Assembly: GCA_019508105.1 (NCBI GenBank)
Contig: JAEKMB010000121.1
Span: forward strand, 1 to 17,226
Length of the DNA: 17,226 bases
From: Alphaproteobacteria bacterium
GTDB taxonomy: Bacteria > Pseudomonadota > Alphaproteobacteria > Micropepsales > Micropepsaceae
Direction: 5' to 3'
Shown here: positions 6,717 through 13,635 of the stretch, one piece after another
Layout: each line of letters begins with the position of its first letter
Position numbering within the stretch: position 1 is the stretch's first letter
The notes under the pieces: generated by a model
Databases searched by the model: none
What the model was told of the DNA's origin: nothing
Seen by the model: only the letters and a program-made list of their open reading frames with translations
Position numbers and translations under genes: made by a program

Positions 6717-7994
6717 TCAGACTACCGGGCTGGTCCCTTCAGGCGCCAGCTTGCGGCCGGCGTCAATCTGGGTGAACAGGGCCGCGCCGATCAGCGCCAT
6801 GACCGAGACGGCATAGAAGGCGTAATTCCAGCCCCAGGCCGTGACGATAAAGACCGTCACCGTCGCCATGATGGCGCCGCCGAGATTACCCACGAAATTC
6901 ATCACCGCGGAACAGGAGCCGGCAAAGCTGCCGCCAATGTCCAGGGTCACCGCCCAGGCATTGCCCACCACCAGTTCCAGCCCGAACACCGTCAGGCCAA
7001 ACAGGGCGGCGCTGATGTAACGATCCGGCTGCAGCACCGCCAGAGGGCAACAGGTCGCCGCGATCAGGAACCCCACGATCGCCACACTCTGGCGCGCGAA
7101 TTTGATGCGGCCCGTGCGGTGGATGATCATGTCCGAGAACAACCCACCACAGATGTCACCCACCACGCCGGCCGCCAGCGGCAGACTGGCGAAGAAGCCC
7201 ATCTCCTTCAGCGAATAGCCGCGCGCCGCGTCCAGGTATTTGGGGTAGTAGGTGATAAAGACGTTCAGCGCATAGCCATAGCAAAAATACATCGCCGCCA
7301 CGGTCCACATCTGGCGCGAGCTCAGGATCAGCTTCCACGGAATCGGCGGGCGGCCCTTGGGATTGCCCAGCGCGGCGACGATCTTTTGGCGCTCGCCGGC
7401 ATTCACGCTTGTATGCTCGCTGGGAACGTCACGATAAAACCAGAACCATATCGCCGCCCAGACGATACCGACCAGGCCGAACAGGAAGAAGGGCGCATGC
7501 CAGCTATAGGTGGCGATCAGTGTCGCCACCATTACAGGCGTCAGAGCCCCTGCCAGGCGCGAGCCGGCGTGCGTCGCTCCTTGCGCGATGCCGCGTTCGC
7601 TGGGCAGCATCCAGCGCGAGAGCGCGCGGTTAGCGATAGGGAAGGCGCCGGCTTCGCCAAAGCCGATCAGGGCCAGGCAGATCATCAGCATGGTGACCGA
7701 GCCGGAAAAACCGGTGACAATGGTAAAGATGGACCACCACACCACCACGCTGGTCATGGCGATGCGCGGGCCGGCGCGGTCGCCGAACCAGCCGCCCGGA
7801 ATCTGAAACAGCGCATAGGACCACTGGTAGCAGCTCTGGATCAGGCCCAGCGTGACCAGGCTGAAACCGAATTCCTTCTGGATCACCGGCAGCGCGTTGG
7901 AAAGCAGCACCCGGTCCAGATAGGTGATGAAGTAGGCCGCAATGGTCAGCGCCAGGATGATGTGGCGCACACGCGTCGGTCGGGCGGTGGACAT
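6717..7994 (-). CDS. MFS transporter of the anion:cation symporter (ACS) type, probable sugar-acid uptake
   Basis: A 425-residue inner-membrane protein with about 12 hydrophobic helices. The first helix carries YFITYLDRVLLSNALP, and the loop after helix two has the MFS motif A form GGWFGDRAGPR (67-77), followed by GFGEAGAFPIANRALSRW. These features match the ACS family, which includes DgoT (galactonate), GudP (glucarate) and ExuT (hexuronate). The surrounding dgoA, dgoK and dehydratase genes favour galactonate or its dehydrated product as substrate, but the substrate is inferred from context. A ribosome site of AAGGGA type precedes ATG 7994. The gene follows the amidohydrolase by 63 bp on the same strand, so the two may be co-transcribed. 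Confidence 0.9.
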   Translation of the reverse strand: MSTARPTRVRHIILALTIAAYFITYLDRVLLSNALPVIQKEFGFSLVTLGLIQSCYQWSYALFQIPGGWFGDRAGPRIAMTSVVVWWSIFTIVTGFSGSVTMLMICLALIGFGEAGAFPIANRALSRWMLPSERGIAQGATHAGSRLAGALTPVMVATLIATYSWHAPFFLFGLVGIVWAAIWFWFYRDVPSEHTSVNAGERQKIVAALGNPKGRPPIPWKLILSSRQMWTVAAMYFCYGYALNVFITYYPKYLDAARGYSLKEMGFFASLPLAAGVVGDICGGLFSDMIIHRTGRIKFARQSVAIVGFLIAATCCPLAVLQPDRYISAALFGLTVFGLELVVGNAWAVTLDIGGSFAGSCSAVMNFVGNLGGAIMATVTVFIVTAWGWNYAFYAVSVMALIGAALFTQIDAGRKLAPEGTSPVV

Positions 7995-8011
7995 GTCGGC
8001 TTCCCTTCAAC

Positions 8012-8033
8012 CGCCGGGCGCGAAGGCCCGGCG
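8012..8033 (-). other. Intergenic hairpin between amidohydrolase and transporter genes
   Basis: CGCCGGGC (8012-8019) and GCCCGGCG (8026-8033) form a perfect 8-bp stem around a six-base loop. No T-run follows on the minus strand, so it is not a standard terminator. It sits just before the transporter's ribosome site and may tune read-through, RNA stability or translation. Confidence 0.5.
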
Positions 8034-8057
8034 TTCAGTTCCTGTCATGCGGGAGGA

Positions 8058-9485
8058 TCAGTACGGCATATGCGGCGGTTCGCTGGGCGACCCCGTAGTG
8101 CAGGCGCTGAGCGGACGGTCGCGGCAGGTCTGCCAGATGGTCGGCACCGAGTTACCGGCGATGAACACCGCCGAGATCGTCTGGGTGTTGCGAATATCGT
8201 CCAGCGGATTCTTCTCCAGCACCACCAGATCGGCCCATTTGCCGGCCTGGACGCTGCCGATGCTTTTGTCGCCCAGCCAGCGGGCATTGTCGCTGGTTGC
8301 GGACTTGATGGCCTCCATCGGCGTGCGGCCCGCCAGCACCTGCATCTGCATTTCTTCATGGGCATTGAAGCCGGGAAAGCGGCCATTGGGGCCGCTGTCG
8401 GTGCCCATGCCGACATTGACACCGGCATTCACCATCGCCTGCCAATTTTCCAGCGCCTGGAACAAGGTGCGGTCCATGTCCCAGAACACTTTCTTTTCAT
8501 AAGGAAGACCCGGGAACCGCGTCGGGCCCAGCACCACCGCCTTTTCGCGGGCCATGCTGCGCAGCGCATCCAGGGTGCCTGGCGTCACGCCGCGGGTGAA
8601 GAAGGGATCGTTCAGCCAGGGCATCATGGCCAGGCTGTAGGCCATCTCGCGCGACAGGGTGCCGGAGACCATCCACACGCCCTTGGCCTTCATCATGTCC
8701 AGCAGTTCCTTGTCCACCGGCTGGTCGCGGACCATGTGGCCGAAGCCGTCCACCCCTTCGCGGATCAGTTCCTTGGCATCGTCCAGATAGAAGACATGCG
8801 CCACGGCGCGCAGATGCTTCTTGTGGGCCTCGTCGATAATCGCGGCGGACACCGCCGGCGGCATCTTGACCGGAATGGTCTTGCGCTCGTCGTCCACCCA
8901 CAGCTTGATGAAATCAACGCCCTTGGCAGCCTGCTCGTCCACCAGCTTGCGCGCCTCTTCCGGGGTGGCAATGGGCTGGGTCACCCCAACCAACCCGCCA
9001 TAGCCGCCCTTGATCACCGCACCCTGGCCGGCGCTGAACACCCGCGACATGGTGGGGCGGCTCTTGCGCTGCTGATTGCGCAGGTCCAGGACGAAATCCT
9101 TGTCGGTGCCCAGCACCTGCACCGCGGTGACGCCGTAAGCGGCATATTGCTTGAGATCGGCACTCACATTCTCGGGCGTGAAATATTTCTCGTCCTGAGT
9201 GACGTCATGCATCAGGCCGATATGGACATGGCTGTCGATGATGCCGGGGATCACGAACTTGCCGGACAGGTCCTGGACCGTGGCGTCCTTGGGCGCCTTC
9301 ATGGCGGCGGCGGGGCCGGCATAGGTGATCTTGCCATTGGTCATCACAATGGCGGAATTGGGTTGGGCCGCCGCGCCGGTCCCGTCGATCAGGGTCAGAT
9401 TGGTCAGTACGGTGGTCTCGCACCAGGCCGGCGCGGCAAAACCCGCCGCCAACAATGCCACCACGCCCCATTTCAAACCCTGCAT
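8058..9485 (-). CDS. Secreted amidohydrolase superfamily metallohydrolase (imidazolonepropionase-like)
   Basis: This 475-residue protein has a Sec signal peptide (residues 1 to about 21, hydrophobic core WGVVALLAAGFAAPAW). The metal site of the amidohydrolase TIM barrel is complete: His86 and His88 in DSHVHIG, Lys194 in FIKLWVDD (candidate carboxylated lysine), His230 in VAHVFYL, His250 in GFGHM, and Asp363 in MGTDSG. The C-terminal KWADLVVLEKNPLDD is also typical. Members cleave varied amide, peptide-like and cyclic substrates, so the substrate is unknown. The start is ATG 9485 with GGAG five bases upstream; an in-frame ATG at 9515 lacks this support. A terminator-like structure upstream (9596-9620) may attenuate expression. 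A lipoprotein is unlikely because Trp precedes the only nearby cysteine. Confidence 0.93.
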   Translation of the reverse strand: MQGLKWGVVALLAAGFAAPAWCETTVLTNLTLIDGTGAAAQPNSAIVMTNGKITYAGPAAAMKAPKDATVQDLSGKFVIPGIIDSHVHIGLMHDVTQDEKYFTPENVSADLKQYAAYGVTAVQVLGTDKDFVLDLRNQQRKSRPTMSRVFSAGQGAVIKGGYGGLVGVTQPIATPEEARKLVDEQAAKGVDFIKLWVDDERKTIPVKMPPAVSAAIIDEAHKKHLRAVAHVFYLDDAKELIREGVDGFGHMVRDQPVDKELLDMMKAKGVWMVSGTLSREMAYSLAMMPWLNDPFFTRGVTPGTLDALRSMAREKAVVLGPTRFPGLPYEKKVFWDMDRTLFQALENWQAMVNAGVNVGMGTDSGPNGRFPGFNAHEEMQMQVLAGRTPMEAIKSATSDNARWLGDKSIGSVQAGKWADLVVLEKNPLDDIRNTQTISAVFIAGNSVPTIWQTCRDRPLSACTTGSPSEPPHMPY

Positions 9486-9490
9486 ATCAA

Positions 9491-9494
9491 CTCC
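9491..9494 (-). promoter_or_regulatory. Ribosome binding site deciding the amidohydrolase start
   Basis: GGAG on the minus strand lies five bases before ATG 9485. This favours 9485 over the upstream in-frame ATG at 9515. Confidence 0.7.
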
Positions 9495-9498
9495 GTTA

Positions 9499-9542
9499 TT
9501 TCGCTGGCTGAACAACCGGTTCTAAGGCAGGCCCCAGCGAAA
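9499..9542 (-). promoter_or_regulatory. Inverted repeat in the amidohydrolase leader
   Basis: TTTCGCTGG (9499-9507) and CCAGCGAAA (9534-9542) are perfect inverted repeats enclosing 26 bases, with the palindrome AACCGGTT (9514-9521) in the loop. The stem ends four bases before the GGAG ribosome site, so folding could affect translation. It could equally be a protein-binding site. Confidence 0.4.
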
Positions 9543-9587
9543 AAAAACCTCAAAGAGTTACGCTGCACTGCGACATGGAACATCACC

Positions 9588-9795
9588 AAAAAAAATGCCG
9601 CCTTCGGAAAGAAGGCGGCACCGATGTCGCGGGTTGATCCCGCTTTATGTTGCTTGCGTCCTGTCAGGCGCGTCACGAGAGACACGTTTCGGCTTGCGCC
9701 GATAACGTATTGATTCCTGTCCTGTTTCCTCGACCCCGGCCGGCGGACTTTTGCCGCCTTCGCTCACGCGGCTCCCTTTGGCGGGGCCGCTTGCG
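9588..9795 (-). ncRNA. Candidate small RNA or attenuating leader ending at the 9596-9620 terminator
   Basis: This is most of the gene-free stretch 9486-9904. Read on the minus strand, successive hairpins appear. GGCGG/CCGCC is at 9742-9758. An imperfect 25-base palindrome ACGTT..CGGC-TTGC-GCCG..AACGT is at 9684-9708. GCGGG-TTGAT-CCCGC is at 9629-9643. The terminator with its U8 tail ends the series. The 5' end is a guess; a weak CATAGT -10-like box lies near 9800. I recognise no known RNA family. The upstream part (about 9800-9890) shows nothing clear beyond GC-rich simple sequence. Confidence 0.35.
9596..9620 (-). terminator. Near-ideal intrinsic terminator on the minus strand, upstream of the amidohydrolase gene
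   Basis: TGCCGCCTTC (9596-9605) and GAAGGCGGCA (9611-9620) form a perfect 10-bp stem around a five-base loop. On the minus strand it is followed by eight T (9595-9588). On the plus strand no T-run follows, so direction is clear. No minus-strand protein gene lies upstream of it, so it must end a non-coding transcript or act inside a leader. Confidence 0.88.
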
Positions 9796-9904
9796 CAAAC
9801 ACTATGTCAGGAGGCGGACAAAAACAAATGCCGCGGCGCGCGGTTTTGCGCAGGAGCCCAAAGGCGCTTAAATAGCCGCAAAAGCACACCATAAGGAGAA
9901 CGGG

Positions 9905-10744
9905 ATGGGGAAATTTTCACGCCGCACCATGTTGGCGGGCACGGCCGCAGGCATCGCCATGCCGGGCAGCGTCTTTGCCGCCGATCCGATCATTCCCGCC
10001 GCCACCATCGCCGCACGCAAGAACGCAACCGTGATCCCCAAGAAGGTGAACAAGCTCTACAACCTCAAGCCACAGGTGGACCAGCCCAACGACATGCAGT
10101 TCGCCCCCAATGGCGATTTGTGGATCCTGGACCAGAAGGATCCCAACAAAGTCTTCACCATCAATGCCAAGACCGGCGCGGTGCTGGCCAGTGTGCAGAC
10201 CGAGTCCATCCACGGCAGCGGTATTACCTATGGCGATGGCGCCTGGTTCATCACCTCAACCAAGGTGCTGAGCGGCAATCCTTCGACCCTCAAGGTGGAT
10301 CCCAAGACCGGCAAGACCCTGAAGAAGTGGGAGACACCGGGCTGGGGCATCTATGGCACCTATGTCACCCGCGTGCCCAAGCCCGGCGACCTGCCGCCGG
10401 AATCCGGCGGCCATGGCGTCAAGTGGGCGGGCAACGGCCAGTATTGGCTGGCGACGCCGGCCGGCGGCAAGCTCTATCTCATCAATGCCGAAACGGGCAC
10501 CGTGGCGCGCAGCATCCAGGCGCCGACGGTGCGCACCCATGGCATCGCGCTGGAGGGCGACCACATCTGGTGCGTCGGCGCCGATGAAGCGGAAATCTAC
10601 AAGCTGCAAATTACCGACGGCGCCATCGTCGCTAAGATCGTGCTGGACAAGGCCAATGATCCTTCCATCCACGGGCTGGACATCAAGGATGGCGTGCTGT
10701 GGTATTGCGACGCCAACAAAGGTTGGATCTGCAATCTGACCTGA
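9905..10744 (+). CDS. Tat-exported beta-propeller protein (SMP-30 / streptogramin-lyase-like fold)
   Basis: A 279-residue protein with a twin-arginine signal: SRRTML at residues 5-10, a hydrophobic stretch, and probable cleavage after VFA (residue 25). The mature part shows at least five blade-like repeats of the form HG or ND, then G, then W/Y: QPNDMQFAPNGDLWILD (60-76), IHGSGITYGDGAWFIT (102-117), GGHGVKWAGNGQYWLAT (168-184), THGIALEGDHIWCVG (211-225) and IHGLDIKDGVLWYCD (255-269). This fits the NHL/SMP-30/Vgb type of propeller, which includes sugar lactonases, but I cannot assign a reaction. AAGGAG (9893-9898) sits six bases before ATG. The next gene, also Tat-exported, starts 31 bp downstream, so they form an operon; a lactonase or substrate-binding role is inference. 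Confidence 0.88.
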   Translation: MGKFSRRTMLAGTAAGIAMPGSVFAADPIIPAATIAARKNATVIPKKVNKLYNLKPQVDQPNDMQFAPNGDLWILDQKDPNKVFTINAKTGAVLASVQTESIHGSGITYGDGAWFITSTKVLSGNPSTLKVDPKTGKTLKKWETPGWGIYGTYVTRVPKPGDLPPESGGHGVKWAGNGQYWLATPAGGKLYLINAETGTVARSIQAPTVRTHGIALEGDHIWCVGADEAEIYKLQITDGAIVAKIVLDKANDPSIHGLDIKDGVLWYCDANKGWICNLT

Positions 10745-10763
10745 AATCACGACAATCATCACT

Positions 10764-10769
10764 GGGGAG
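10764..10769 (+). promoter_or_regulatory. Ribosome binding site deciding the dehydratase start
   Basis: GGGGAG directly abuts an ATG at 10770, which is too close for use, and lies six bases before the in-frame ATG 10776. The latter is therefore the likely start. Confidence 0.75.
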
Positions 10770-10775
10770 ATGACC

Positions 10776-12017
10776 ATGGACCGCCGCACCTTGATGACGG
10801 GCATGCTGGGCACGGCTGCCGCGCTGTGGACGGCGCCGGACGCCTTTGCGCTGGGCCTGCCCAAAGACAGGATCAAGCGCATCCGCTACTACAAAACCCC
10901 CACCGACGCGGCCGGGCGCCCCAATGTGCATCAGCCGACTTTCAACCAGTCCACCAACATCGTCACCATCGAGACCGAAAGCGGCTTAATGGGCATCGGC
11001 GAAGGCGGTGAGCCTTCGACCATGGAACAATGCGCCGGCCTGTTGATCGGCGAGGACCCCTTCCGCGTCCAGCATCTGTGGCAGGTGATGGAGCGTGGCT
11101 ATTTCTATCCGGCGGGGCGGGAAAAGACCCACTCGCTGGGCGCGCTGGACGTGGCGCTGTGGGATCTCAAGGGCAAGGCGCTGGGGGTGCCGGTGTGGCA
11201 GCTCCTGGGCGGCAAGAGCCGCGACTATGTGGAATGCTACGCCACCTCTTATCCCACGCCCAAGGGCGGCACGTTGGAAGACGCGGCGCGCGCCTGTGTC
11301 GCCGAAGGCTTCCGCGCCTATCGCACCGGCGTGCGCGAGAACCAGGTGTTCGACCGTTTCGAGGCGGTGCGCCGCACCGTGGAAGACTGCCAGGCCATCC
11401 GCCGCGGCGTGGGCAAGGACGGGGCCTGGGCGATCGACTTCCACGGTACCATGGATCCGCAGGATGCCATCACCCTGGCCACCGAGCTGGAGCCATTGCA
11501 TCCCTTCTTCTGCGAGGACCTGATCCGCGGCGAGAATATTGACATCTATAAAGTGTTACGCCCGCGGCTGCGGGTGCCGATCGCGGTGGGCGAGATCTAT
11601 GGTGTGAAGTGGGAGATGAGCCCGCTGATCGAGCAGAATCTGATCGATTTTGCCCGCTGCACCGTGCCCAATGTCGGCGGCATCACCGAATATATGAAAA
11701 TCGCCGCCCTGTGCGAGACCCATTATTGCGGCATGATCCCACATTTCACCGGGCCCATCGGCGAAACCGCCCTGGTCCATTGCCTCACCGCCACCTCGGT
11801 GATCGCGCTGATGGAAATGACCAGCGCCGGCCGCGAGCCCTGGCCCTATCTGCCGCAGGCCTATGACTTCCATAACGGTAAACTCTGGCCCAATGAGCGC
11901 CCCGGCCTGGGCGTAACCCTGGACACCAGCAAGCTGCAAAGGGTGGGCGACTGGACGGAGCATTATGCGCCCATCCAGATCAACAAACGGCCGGATGGTT
12001 CCTATACAAATTGGTAA
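10776..12017 (+). CDS. Tat-exported mandelate racemase/muconate lactonizing (enolase superfamily) sugar-acid dehydratase, galactonate dehydratase-like
   Basis: A 413-residue protein with a Tat signal (MDRRTLMTG, cleavage probably after AFA, residue 25), then the enolase-superfamily capping domain and barrel. The three metal ligands are Asp221 (AIDFHG), Glu247 (FFCEDL) and Glu273 (AVGEIYG), spaced 26 and 26. His223 is in the Asp-Phe-His motif and His323 (IPHFTGP) follows the last ligand by 50. As I recall, E. coli galactonate dehydratase has the same spacing (Asp183, Glu209, Glu235, His185, His285). RspA-type mannonate dehydratases share it, so the exact substrate is open. KGKALGVPVWQLLGG and RPGLGVTLD support a DgoD-like enzyme, as do the nearby dgoK and dgoA. 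Export is odd, because this family is normally cytoplasmic. It lies 31 bp after the propeller gene and ends at the second palindromic repeat. Confidence 0.9.
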   Translation: MDRRTLMTGMLGTAAALWTAPDAFALGLPKDRIKRIRYYKTPTDAAGRPNVHQPTFNQSTNIVTIETESGLMGIGEGGEPSTMEQCAGLLIGEDPFRVQHLWQVMERGYFYPAGREKTHSLGALDVALWDLKGKALGVPVWQLLGGKSRDYVECYATSYPTPKGGTLEDAARACVAEGFRAYRTGVRENQVFDRFEAVRRTVEDCQAIRRGVGKDGAWAIDFHGTMDPQDAITLATELEPLHPFFCEDLIRGENIDIYKVLRPRLRVPIAVGEIYGVKWEMSPLIEQNLIDFARCTVPNVGGITEYMKIAALCETHYCGMIPHFTGPIGETALVHCLTATSVIALMEMTSAGREPWPYLPQAYDFHNGKLWPNERPGLGVTLDTSKLQRVGDWTEHYAPIQINKRPDGSYTNW

Positions 12018-12023
12018 ACTCAG

Positions 12024-12099
12024 TTGTCATGCCCGCGAAAGCGGGCATCCAACTTGGTAAAGTCAAAAGTTGGAATTCCCGCTTGCGCGGGAATGACAA
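12024..12099. repeat. Two-hairpin palindromic intergenic repeat, copy 2
   Basis: A 76-bp copy of the element at 4830-4912, bounded by TTGTC and GACAA. Hairpin one (12029-12048) is identical to copy 1. The middle stem is CCAACTT (12049-12055) with AAGTTGG (12067-12073). Hairpin two, ATTCCCGC-TTGC-GCGGGAAT (12075-12094), differs by one loop base. The central spacer differs in sequence and is shorter. It lies between the convergent stops of the dehydratase gene and dgoA. A T5 run follows on the plus strand (12101-12105). Confidence 0.93.
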
Positions 12100-12103
12100 G
12101 TTT

Positions 12104-12727
12104 TTAGTTTGCAGCCTTGAACGCAGCCACACTGGCGCGGACGCGGGCGGCGATGTCTTCGTCGCTGAAATCCGGCTTGAACAATTCCGACCCTAGCCCG
12201 AAACCGGCGGCACCGGCGCGGCGCCATTCCTGCATGTTGCCGGCGCCGACCCCGCCCACGGCATAAACCGGTTGCCCCTTGGGCAGCACCGCCAGCATGG
12301 CTTTGAGATGATCGGTGCCGCCGGTGGCCGCCGGAAACAGCTTGAGATATTTCGCGCCGGCCGCCAGGGCGGCAAAAGCTTCGCTGGGTGTATAGAAGCC
12401 CGGCATCACGGTGAGGCCCTGTTCCACGCCGCGCGCGATGACAGCGGGATTTGTGTTGGGTGTCACCAGCAGCTTGCCGCCGGCCGCCGCCACCCGGTCC
12501 ACATCGGCCGCATTCAGCACGGTGCCCGCGCCGATCAGGCAGCGGTCGCCGAACATCCTGGCCAGGCTTTCGATACTGGCGAAGGCATCGGGAGAATTCA
12601 GCGGAACTTCGATGGCGCGGATGCCTGCATCAAACAGCGCCTCCGCCACGCCCAGGACCCTGCCAGGCGTCACGCCGCGCAGGATGGCGACGATGGGTAA
12701 TCCGGCCAGCAAGGCATCAGGGTTCAT
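12104..12727 (-). CDS. dgoA: 2-dehydro-3-deoxy-6-phosphogalactonate aldolase (KDPG/KDPGal aldolase family)
   Basis: This cytoplasmic class I aldolase cleaves 2-keto-3-deoxy-6-phosphogalactonate to pyruvate and glyceraldehyde 3-phosphate, the last step of galactonate degradation. The 207 residues match the family. ILRGVTP (Arg17), IEVPLNSP (Glu40) and YLKLFPA (Lys129, Schiff-base lysine) are present. VPLNSP is the form I associate with DgoA; the Entner-Doudoroff enzyme Eda usually has a threonine-arginine version. The start ATG overlaps the dgoK stop by four bases (ATGA, 12724-12727), and no separate ribosome site is seen, so translation is probably coupled. The stop lies five bases from the palindromic repeat. 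Confidence 0.94.
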   Translation of the reverse strand: MNPDALLAGLPIVAILRGVTPGRVLGVAEALFDAGIRAIEVPLNSPDAFASIESLARMFGDRCLIGAGTVLNAADVDRVAAAGGKLLVTPNTNPAVIARGVEQGLTVMPGFYTPSEAFAALAAGAKYLKLFPAATGGTDHLKAMLAVLPKGQPVYAVGGVGAGNMQEWRRAGAAGFGLGSELFKPDFSDEDIAARVRASVAAFKAAN

Positions 12728-13635
12728 GAGAAAATTTCCGCATGGGCGTGGACCAGGCCCGCCAGGGCCGCTGCATCGCCGTCAATCACGGCGCTAGTGA
12801 GATCATAGGCGCTGAGCGCCCTGGCATAAAGCGCCGCCAGCCCGGGGCTGCAGATCAGCTGCACCGGCCCTTCGAGGTCGAGCAAGCTGCGCGCCGCGCC
12901 GATATCCTTGCCCAGCATCAGGCCCGACAAATAGGACGCCGCGTCGGCCTTGGGCATCTCGCCCGTGACCACGCGGCTGCGGGTGCTGAACAGAAGATGC
13001 AGCAGGTCGGCATTTTCGTTGGCGCGGGCAAAATCCAGACCGCGCGCAAATCCCCGACTTGCGGGATCCACCTCGCCGCCATCGCGCGCCAGCACGCTGT
13101 GGCGGCGCACCAACTCGAACAATTCTCCCGACAGCGCGGTCTGGAACTGGATCACCGCGCCCTCTTCCACCACCACCCATTTCACATGGGTGCCGGGCAT
13201 GCAGAGGACATGGCGGCCCTTGGTCAGATCGGGACGAAGGCGCAGCGCACCCGATATCTGGGTTTCCTCGCCGCGCATCACATCCGGCGCACCGGTTTTG
13301 CCGGTGCAGGACAAGCCCGGCAGGATGGCGATGGCGCGCCCGCCCGCTTCAAAGCGCAGCGCCGCACCCGCGATGGCGCCGGGCTTTGCCGGGCATTTCA
13401 GATAGGGCACCTCGCGCCAGCCGATGGTTGAACCCACCATGCCGCCCAGCACCGCCGGCAACACGCCATGCGCCTGGTCCCAGGGTGCCACCACGGCAGC
13501 GAAGCGGCCGGCGCAGTCTGGCACCGAAGCGCCCTCGCCTTCGGCTCGCGCCAGTACCTCGCCACGCCTGTCACATAGATAAAGCCGCAAGCGGCTGGTG
13601 CCCCAGTCGCCGGCGATGAAAGCCGCCCTGCTCAT
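12724..13635 (-). CDS. dgoK: 2-dehydro-3-deoxygalactonokinase
   Basis: This kinase phosphorylates 2-keto-3-deoxygalactonate at C6 in the cytoplasm, giving the substrate of DgoA. The 304-residue protein begins MSRAAFIAGDWGTSRLRLYL; the GDWGTSR phosphate-binding motif (9-15) is characteristic of the DGOK family. GTHVKWVVVE and the conserved HSVLARDG/GFARGLDFARAN region follow. An upstream in-frame ATG (13752) would overlap the preceding gene and precedes only Arg-rich sequence, so 13635 is preferred. There is no clear ribosome site. A TATAAA box (minus strand, 13650-13645) with TCGACA 15 bases further upstream could yield a nearly leaderless transcript. The gene also follows a DUF3175 gene by 22 bp, and read-through from it is possible. 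Confidence 0.94.
   Translation of the reverse strand: MSRAAFIAGDWGTSRLRLYLCDRRGEVLARAEGEGASVPDCAGRFAAVVAPWDQAHGVLPAVLGGMVGSTIGWREVPYLKCPAKPGAIAGAALRFEAGGRAIAILPGLSCTGKTGAPDVMRGEETQISGALRLRPDLTKGRHVLCMPGTHVKWVVVEEGAVIQFQTALSGELFELVRRHSVLARDGGEVDPASRGFARGLDFARANENADLLHLLFSTRSRVVTGEMPKADAASYLSGLMLGKDIGAARSLLDLEGPVQLICSPGLAALYARALSAYDLTSAVIDGDAAALAGLVHAHAEIFS

Follow-up and report, generated by a model that had tools for sequence, protein, structure and literature searches.

In the De Ley–Doudoroff route, galactonate is imported first and dehydrated inside the cell. Does this order also hold where the candidate dehydratase carries an export signal? The question is raised by a 17,226-nucleotide stretch of DNA (the window; contig C189) from a Rhizomicrobium-like soil alphaproteobacterium, the assembly of which is 62% complete. 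In the window, a protein of the enolase superfamily, here called ENO, has a twin-arginine translocation (Tat) signal and is encoded near a Tat-signal beta-propeller, a major facilitator superfamily (MFS) transporter and the enzymes DgoK and DgoA (Table 1). Four ENO homologues with 80–87% identity are labelled Rhizomicrobium sp. Profile matches place all of these genes where a preliminary description of the window had put them, and the propeller and ENO genes, which are co-directional and 25 nucleotides apart, have the operon-like arrangement that it had claimed. Below, G numbers denote the 37 genomes of the genus group (G000 being the window's own) and L numbers denote loci.

We tentatively favour a sugar-acid pathway that is split between two compartments, with an exported ENO and cytoplasmic DgoK and DgoA. 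Among single readings of the locus we rank this one highest, but it is not secure. ENO would dehydrate a C6 aldonate on the outer side of the inner membrane, and the remodelled ACS-type MFS protein would take up the resulting 2-keto-3-deoxy acid with protons; DgoK would then phosphorylate the acid, and DgoA would cleave it to pyruvate and glyceraldehyde 3-phosphate. Earlier steps probably fall to the exported propeller and an exported amidohydrolase, either of which might open a lactone. Since DgoK and DgoA use 2-keto-3-deoxygalactonate, one would expect the substrate to be either D-galactonate or an aldonate with the same C4/C5, as in talonate, gulonate and idonate; a substrate among the aldonates that give 2-keto-3-deoxygalactonate is plausible.

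Conserved export signals of ENO and the propeller

The signal of ENO runs from MDRRTLMTGM to APDAFA, with cleavage before LG, and that of the propeller from SRRTMLAG to VFA, with cleavage before AD (both cleavage sites were placed by eye). In the genus-group alignment, A25-x-A27 of ENO was invariant in 16 of 16 rows, and the arginine pair (RR) was found in all 15 rows that include the N terminus. The RR, the hydrophobic stretch and the AxA motif were kept, and the sequence between RR and AxA was variable. R6-R7 of the propeller was kept in 39 of 39 sequences. Across the ENO clade, which reaches from Alphaproteobacteria to Acidobacteria and includes one Sphingobium, 69 of 74 scoreable rows (75 rows in total) had the RR signal; the five without it were L120, L122, L123, L125 and L128. 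By contrast, none of the five canonical DgoD proteins in the genus group had a signal. The window's own genome encodes TatC, as do 36 of the 37 genomes searched.

The rows of the clade were the best 80 of 181 loci together with loci of the genus genomes. From the 124 rows of the tree input, 15 were dropped: eight repeat records; L056, L057, L058, L072 and L112, taken to be near kin and all having the RR; L121, which is cut off before the N terminus; and L131. In 16 rows of the tree the Tat label was given by hand, from N termini that the anchor of the script had missed, and the first count for the clade was 68 with a signal, 5 without and 2 unscored. L106 and L130 were then read directly and both had the RR, giving 69 of 74 with L129 unscored; counting the dropped row L131, in which no signal was seen, gives 69 of 75. 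A loose rule of thumb for signals flagged 132 of 1,022 open reading frames from loci that had been selected around genes of this kind. The propeller failed this rule, which we put down to its V-x-A cleavage site. The case for export therefore rests on conservation and not on the rule. Given its conserved twin-arginine signal and cleavage motif, ENO is a predicted Tat substrate. The Tat signals proposed earlier for ENO and the propeller hold up in the conserved RR of both proteins, the A-x-A of ENO and the TatC of the window's own genome.

ENO, the cluster transporter and the DgoK/DgoA partners

ENO has the metal ligands D223, E249 and E275 at a 26/26 spacing, together with H225 and H325, and D223, H225, E249, E275, H325, E349 and R185 were invariant in all 75 rows of the clade. 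The preliminary description had taken the ligand spacing for that of a galactonate dehydratase. The ligands and the spacing are indeed there, but the same 26/26 spacing occurs in the ManD-like protein L148 and is thus not diagnostic, and ENO departs from DgoD in its profile score and at the dyad position (see below). R185 stands where DgoD has Lys and L148 has Arg, and one of the four top-scoring PDB structures for ENO is a mannonate dehydratase (3vcn). By its residues, ENO has the ligand set of a sugar-acid dehydratase and is a candidate for such an enzyme outside the DgoD and ManD families.

The transporter is altered at several positions through which DgoT binds galactonate. According to excerpts of the published work on DgoT, five hydroxyls are bound by Q164, Q264, S370 and N393 and the carboxylate by R47, Y79 and Y44 (PMC6532931), and in E. 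coli DgoT the conservative mutations Q164N, Q264N and S370T abolish galactonate uptake, whereas Y44F does not (PMC10149257). In the ten full-length cluster transporters, including that of the window, D46, R47, Y79, E133, W373 and N393 were all kept, whereas Q164 was replaced by S or A and Q264 by Y in ten of ten, and S370 by G in nine of ten (L062 retained S). The proton and carboxylate set of DgoT is thus present, but its full hydroxyl-binding set is not. By contrast, the MFS proteins beside canonical DgoD kept Q164, Q264, S370 and the core in five of five cases, with Y or F at position 44. The cluster MFS protein is thus most likely to carry organic anions together with protons, in a pocket that differs from that of DgoT. 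A changed pocket would be required for a dehydrated acid to be imported, although it does not identify the cargo.

The cluster is conserved among relatives. We examined 15 public ENO loci with 76–94% identity, several of which come from the same genomes as the genus group, and found dgoA in 14 and dgoK in 13; the amidohydrolase and the propeller were each present in 12, and the MFS gene in 11. Six of the 13 absences are at contig ends (MFS in L058, L059 and L064; amidohydrolase in L058 and L064; dgoK in L064), five are in L132, where the other five cluster genes do not surround ENO, and two are real, the propeller being truly missing at the locus in L060 and L062. As far as the contigs reach, the set of MFS, amidohydrolase, ENO, dgoA and dgoK is visible in 8 of the 36 other genus-group genomes. 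In L062 this set lies on a 9.7-kb contig without leuBD and dcp as neighbours, and L067 and L098 likewise have dgoKA close to ENO or one of its paralogues.

The presence of dgoK follows that of ENO. Among the 37 genomes, 12 encode ENO-clade proteins (at least 59% identity) and 18 encode DgoK; dgoK was found in 12 of 12 genomes with ENO and in 6 of 25 others (Fisher P = 1e-5, without correction for relatedness). Of the six dgoK genomes that lack ENO, three (G020, G024 and G035) have dgoK-dgoA next to a gene for an IlvD-family dehydratase, which argues that ENO takes the place of this dehydratase; the window has the Tat-signal ENO where these clusters have the IlvD-family enzyme. Neighbour scans, which covered G020 and G035, found an SGL lactonase, a GH42 beta-galactosidase, a melibiase and a D-xylose-dehydrogenase-like SDR in G020 (L208), and an SGL lactonase and a sodium:solute symporter in G035 (L210). 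The company of IlvD, lactonase and galactosidases suggests that dgoKA can belong to galactose or galactonate use in this group. In the ENO genome G014, an IlvD-family gene lies about 6 kb from dgoK.

Weighing the split pathway against its rivals

Several observations weigh against a split pathway. The genes leuBD, glcB and dcp, which are unrelated to it, often keep the same order around the cluster, so part of the synteny is plain vertical inheritance. IlvD matches lie away from dgoK in the ENO-less genomes G022, G028 and G029. The altered residues of the MFS protein tell what the transporter is not, rather than what it carries. The propeller matched neither the SMP-30 family (PF08450) nor the PF10282 lactonase family at an E value of 0.001, the only profiles over their own cut-offs being DUF6923 (32 bits) and PepSY (27 bits), which speaks against the lactonase role suggested for it earlier. 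The remaining points concern the supply of DgoK and the identity of ENO, and each underlies a rival explanation.

One possible explanation, which we consider less likely than the split pathway, is that DgoK and DgoA serve an ordinary cytoplasmic DgoT–DgoD route. The dgoT and dgoD genes would then lie elsewhere, ENO would make another keto acid that the altered MFS protein imports, and the proximity of dgoKA would be historical. Consistent with this explanation, a canonical DgoD (640–678 bits; cut-off 311) is encoded in G001, G015, G016, G018 and G031, where it has no signal and adjoins a DgoT-like MFS protein; the DgoD reading frame of G018 was not listed by the gene caller and was placed beside the MFS gene by profile match. 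The single dgoK of each of these five genomes is within the ENO cluster, and DgoD with its MFS protein could feed that DgoK. So could a further canonical DgoD, in G012 (L168, G012:C131), the gene of which reads as two overlapping frames, either through a frameshift or because of faulty assembly. The ENO gene and dgoKA have opposite orientations, and dgoK was not found in any of the 11 acidobacterial ENO genomes tested, the completeness of which is not given; the 14 genomes tested, which represent 14 of the 80 loci, yielded dgoK in two cases, the G014 record and the Sphingobium, whereas the genome of L120 yielded none. Where dgoK is absent from a genome, the product of ENO must go elsewhere.

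Against an ordinary route, ENO and dgoK occur without a canonical signal-less DgoD match in G036, G006, G008 and G017. No DgoD match of 640–678-bit strength was found in G036 (100% complete), G006 (98%), G014 (95%), G008 (93%) or G017 (82%), and the two matches over the DgoD cut-off in G036 (362 and 318 bits) both have Tat signals. Other signal-less members of the superfamily remain, however, in G036 and G006, the two of these genomes that were surveyed for them. The ordinary route is also at odds with the presence of dgoKA beside ENO or an ENO paralogue in three contexts (L062, L067 and L098). The preliminary description had regarded a second cytoplasmic dgoD that supplies DgoK as evidence against its pathway: five, probably six, of the 12 ENO genomes have a canonical dgoD without a signal, and five others gave no match of that strength. 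The window's own genome, in which a single DgoK match (that of the window) was obtained, is too incomplete to decide on a cytoplasmic DgoD.

A second explanation, which seems to us rather unlikely, is that ENO does not dehydrate an aldonate. It might be an epimerase or a cycloisomerase, or it might dehydrate an acyl- or amino-linked sugar acid, with the exported amidohydrolase either releasing this compound or consuming it. ENO scored 207.8 bits against the DgoD equivalog NF010624 (cut-off 311) and 197.2 bits against the ManD family NF043051 (cut-off 550), and it had no NCBIfam match over a cut-off. At the position of the dyad Asp, presumably the partner of the catalytic His of DgoD, ENO has T298 (T in 65, S in 8 and M in 1 of the 75 rows, one not being printed), whereas DgoD has D in five of five. 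This residue and R185 make a pattern unlike that of DgoD. The hallmark of ManD, which we take to be a second-strand Arg with a long loop that bears a catalytic Tyr, is incomplete in ENO, as 25 columns of the loop after R185 are gapped relative to L148. In the tree, ENO formed a single clade of its own (SH-aLRT 100), and its sister-side group (93) contained the ManD-like L148 and not DgoD. The phylogeny, which carries a long-branch warning, thus places ENO nearer to a ManD-like group than to DgoD. The intact ligands of the amidohydrolase in 12 of 12 cluster members would also suit this explanation. By contrast, the D-x-H, E, E, H, E set kept in 75 of 75 rows and the DgoK and DgoA partners argue for an aldonate dehydratase. 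Finally, it is very improbable that the twin-arginine segment fails to bring ENO to the periplasm, either because translation starts downstream of it or because it stays as a membrane anchor facing inside: the signal rule is loose, but the RR, hydrophobic stretch and AxA are conserved across a variable intervening sequence, and canonical DgoD has no signal.

The pathway first proposed is thus supported in part: the export signals, the altered MFS pocket and the partnership with dgoKA speak for the split, whereas ENO falls outside DgoD by profile score and dyad residue, the propeller matches no lactonase family, and about half of the ENO genomes encode a cytoplasmic DgoD. We class the locus as a variant of the galactonate route and its dehydratase candidate as something other than DgoD.

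The wider locus and related Tat-signal enolases

From its first gene to its last, the window encodes a lactate permease, malate synthase G, leuB and leuD (both named by eye), the MFS transporter, the amidohydrolase, the propeller, ENO, DgoA, DgoK, a DUF3175 protein and a peptidase M3. The MFS gene and dgoA-dgoK are on the strand opposite to propeller–ENO, and the amidohydrolase is 63 nucleotides upstream of the MFS gene on the same strand.

Table 1 Features of the cluster in the window.
Feature	Coordinates	Strand	Evidence
ACS-type (SLC17-like) MFS transporter	6717–7994	−	Best PDB match DgoT 6e9n, 169 bits; TIGR00893, 245 bits (cut-off 395)
Predicted exported amidohydrolase	8058–9485	−	PF01979, 84.5 bits; Sec-type signal by eye
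Divergent intergenic region with conserved terminator-like hairpin	9486–9904		Hairpin at 9622–9594 on the − strand
Tat-signal beta-propeller, probably five-bladed	9905–10744	+	Invariant N62-D63, H103, H170, H212 and H256
Tat-signal enolase-superfamily (mandelate-racemase type) protein, ENO	10770–12017	+	PF13378, 150 bits; PF02746, 62 bits
DgoA, 2-dehydro-3-deoxy-6-phosphogalactonate aldolase	12104–12727	−	NF006600, 270 bits (cut-off 207)
DgoK, 2-keto-3-deoxygalactonokinase	12724–13635	−	PF05035, 278 bits (over cut-off)

The amidohydrolase, which was absent from the preliminary description, belongs to the conserved cluster. Besides its PF01979 match, it has the ligands H85, H87, K193, H229, H249 and D362 (numbered from the residue after Met) in all 12 cluster members, including the window; HxH-K-H-H-D is, we assume, the ligand pattern of the amidohydrolase superfamily. 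Among the structures that it resembles most closely are a possible prolidase, hydrolases of phenylurea and of molinate, and an arginine carboxypeptidase; amide or lactone hydrolysis is possible. About 140 nucleotides before this gene, the divergent region holds a hairpin followed by a T-run, and it also holds the element GCAGTGCAGCG. The hairpin was found in 12 of 13 aligned cluster loci (ten by pattern, L060 and L068 by eye) and not in L062. No Rfam family matched the intergenic region at gathering score. The hairpin could represent either a small RNA or a leader with attenuation.

Tat signals are widespread among related enolases. The N termini of the PF13378 matches in three genomes (L134–L162 and L175–L200) were read by eye, and a twin-arginine signal was present in 8 of the 16 from G015, 9 of the 13 from G031 and 10 of the 15 from G036. 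The tree needs seven changes of Tat label, and two Tat clades group with DgoD; one of their members, L050 (G000:C152, 1402–2649), scored 351 bits, over the DgoD cut-off of 311. An MFS-like sequence with 33% identity to the window transporter is near L050 on contig C152. The ENO paralogues L046, L047 and L048 (59–62% identity) have, adjoining or near them, a protein of one family with a signal-like N terminus; the L047 member matches the metallo-beta-lactamase superfamily PF00753 and could be another lactone or ester hydrolase. In G014, the ENO orthologue (76% identity; L043/L132, G014:C50) clusters with a second Tat enolase that is closest to ManD, an aldose epimerase, an aldehyde dehydrogenase, a PQQ-dehydrogenase-type protein and a PF10282 lactonase that, by eye, has a Sec-type signal. 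The PQQ-dehydrogenase-type protein scored 518 bits against the membrane-bound glucose/quinate family, under the cut-off of 833. Such a layout would fit a route in which oxidation, the opening of a lactone and dehydration all occur outside the membrane.

The system closest in its parts is the E. coli DgoT–DgoD–DgoK–DgoA route, with which the window shares the DgoK and DgoA families, an SLC17-type MFS protein and an enolase-superfamily protein with the metal ligands of DgoD. It differs in a dehydratase candidate from another clade with a Tat signal, a transporter pocket that is altered at Q164, Q264 and S370, and an added exported propeller and amidohydrolase. ENO resembles ManD, the D-mannonate/D-gluconate dehydratase, in R185, D-x-H, a T for the dyad Asp as in L148 and the 3vcn match, but differs in the gapped loop, the low ManD score and the Tat signal. 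The IlvD-type clusters are similar in having dgoK-dgoA beside a dehydratase, with an SGL lactonase in G020 and G035. In acetic acid bacteria, the dehydratase of the quinate-to-dehydroshikimate route is periplasmic. Excerpts of a paper on these bacteria describe how a substrate is first oxidized outside the inner membrane and then enters a dehydratase step, as from quinate to dehydroshikimate (PMC9171043), but the enzymes are unrelated and DgoK and DgoA have no part there. One SAR202 genome has 80 enolase-superfamily genes, proposed to act in the catabolism of sugars and sugar acids, and the searchable text of that report does not mention the periplasm (PMC10444878); many enolase copies of the genus group, by contrast, carry Tat signals.

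On a broader and more doubtful view, Rhizomicrobium-type bacteria may carry out the first half of aldonate breakdown outside the inner membrane. A radiation of Tat-enolase dehydratases, fed by periplasmic oxidation and by a previously unrecognized metal-dependent, five-bladed propeller enzyme with a four-histidine ring, would make keto-deoxy acids, and a re-tuned SLC17-type symporter would import these for DgoK and DgoA. If the split pathway is true, transporters that adjoin DgoD and those that adjoin the exported enzyme offer a testable contrast, and the many 'galactonate dehydratase' labels on the ENO clade of Alphaproteobacteria and Acidobacteria would read differently. An exported dehydratase would let the cell commit shared aldonates to a product that is usable only with the matching importer.

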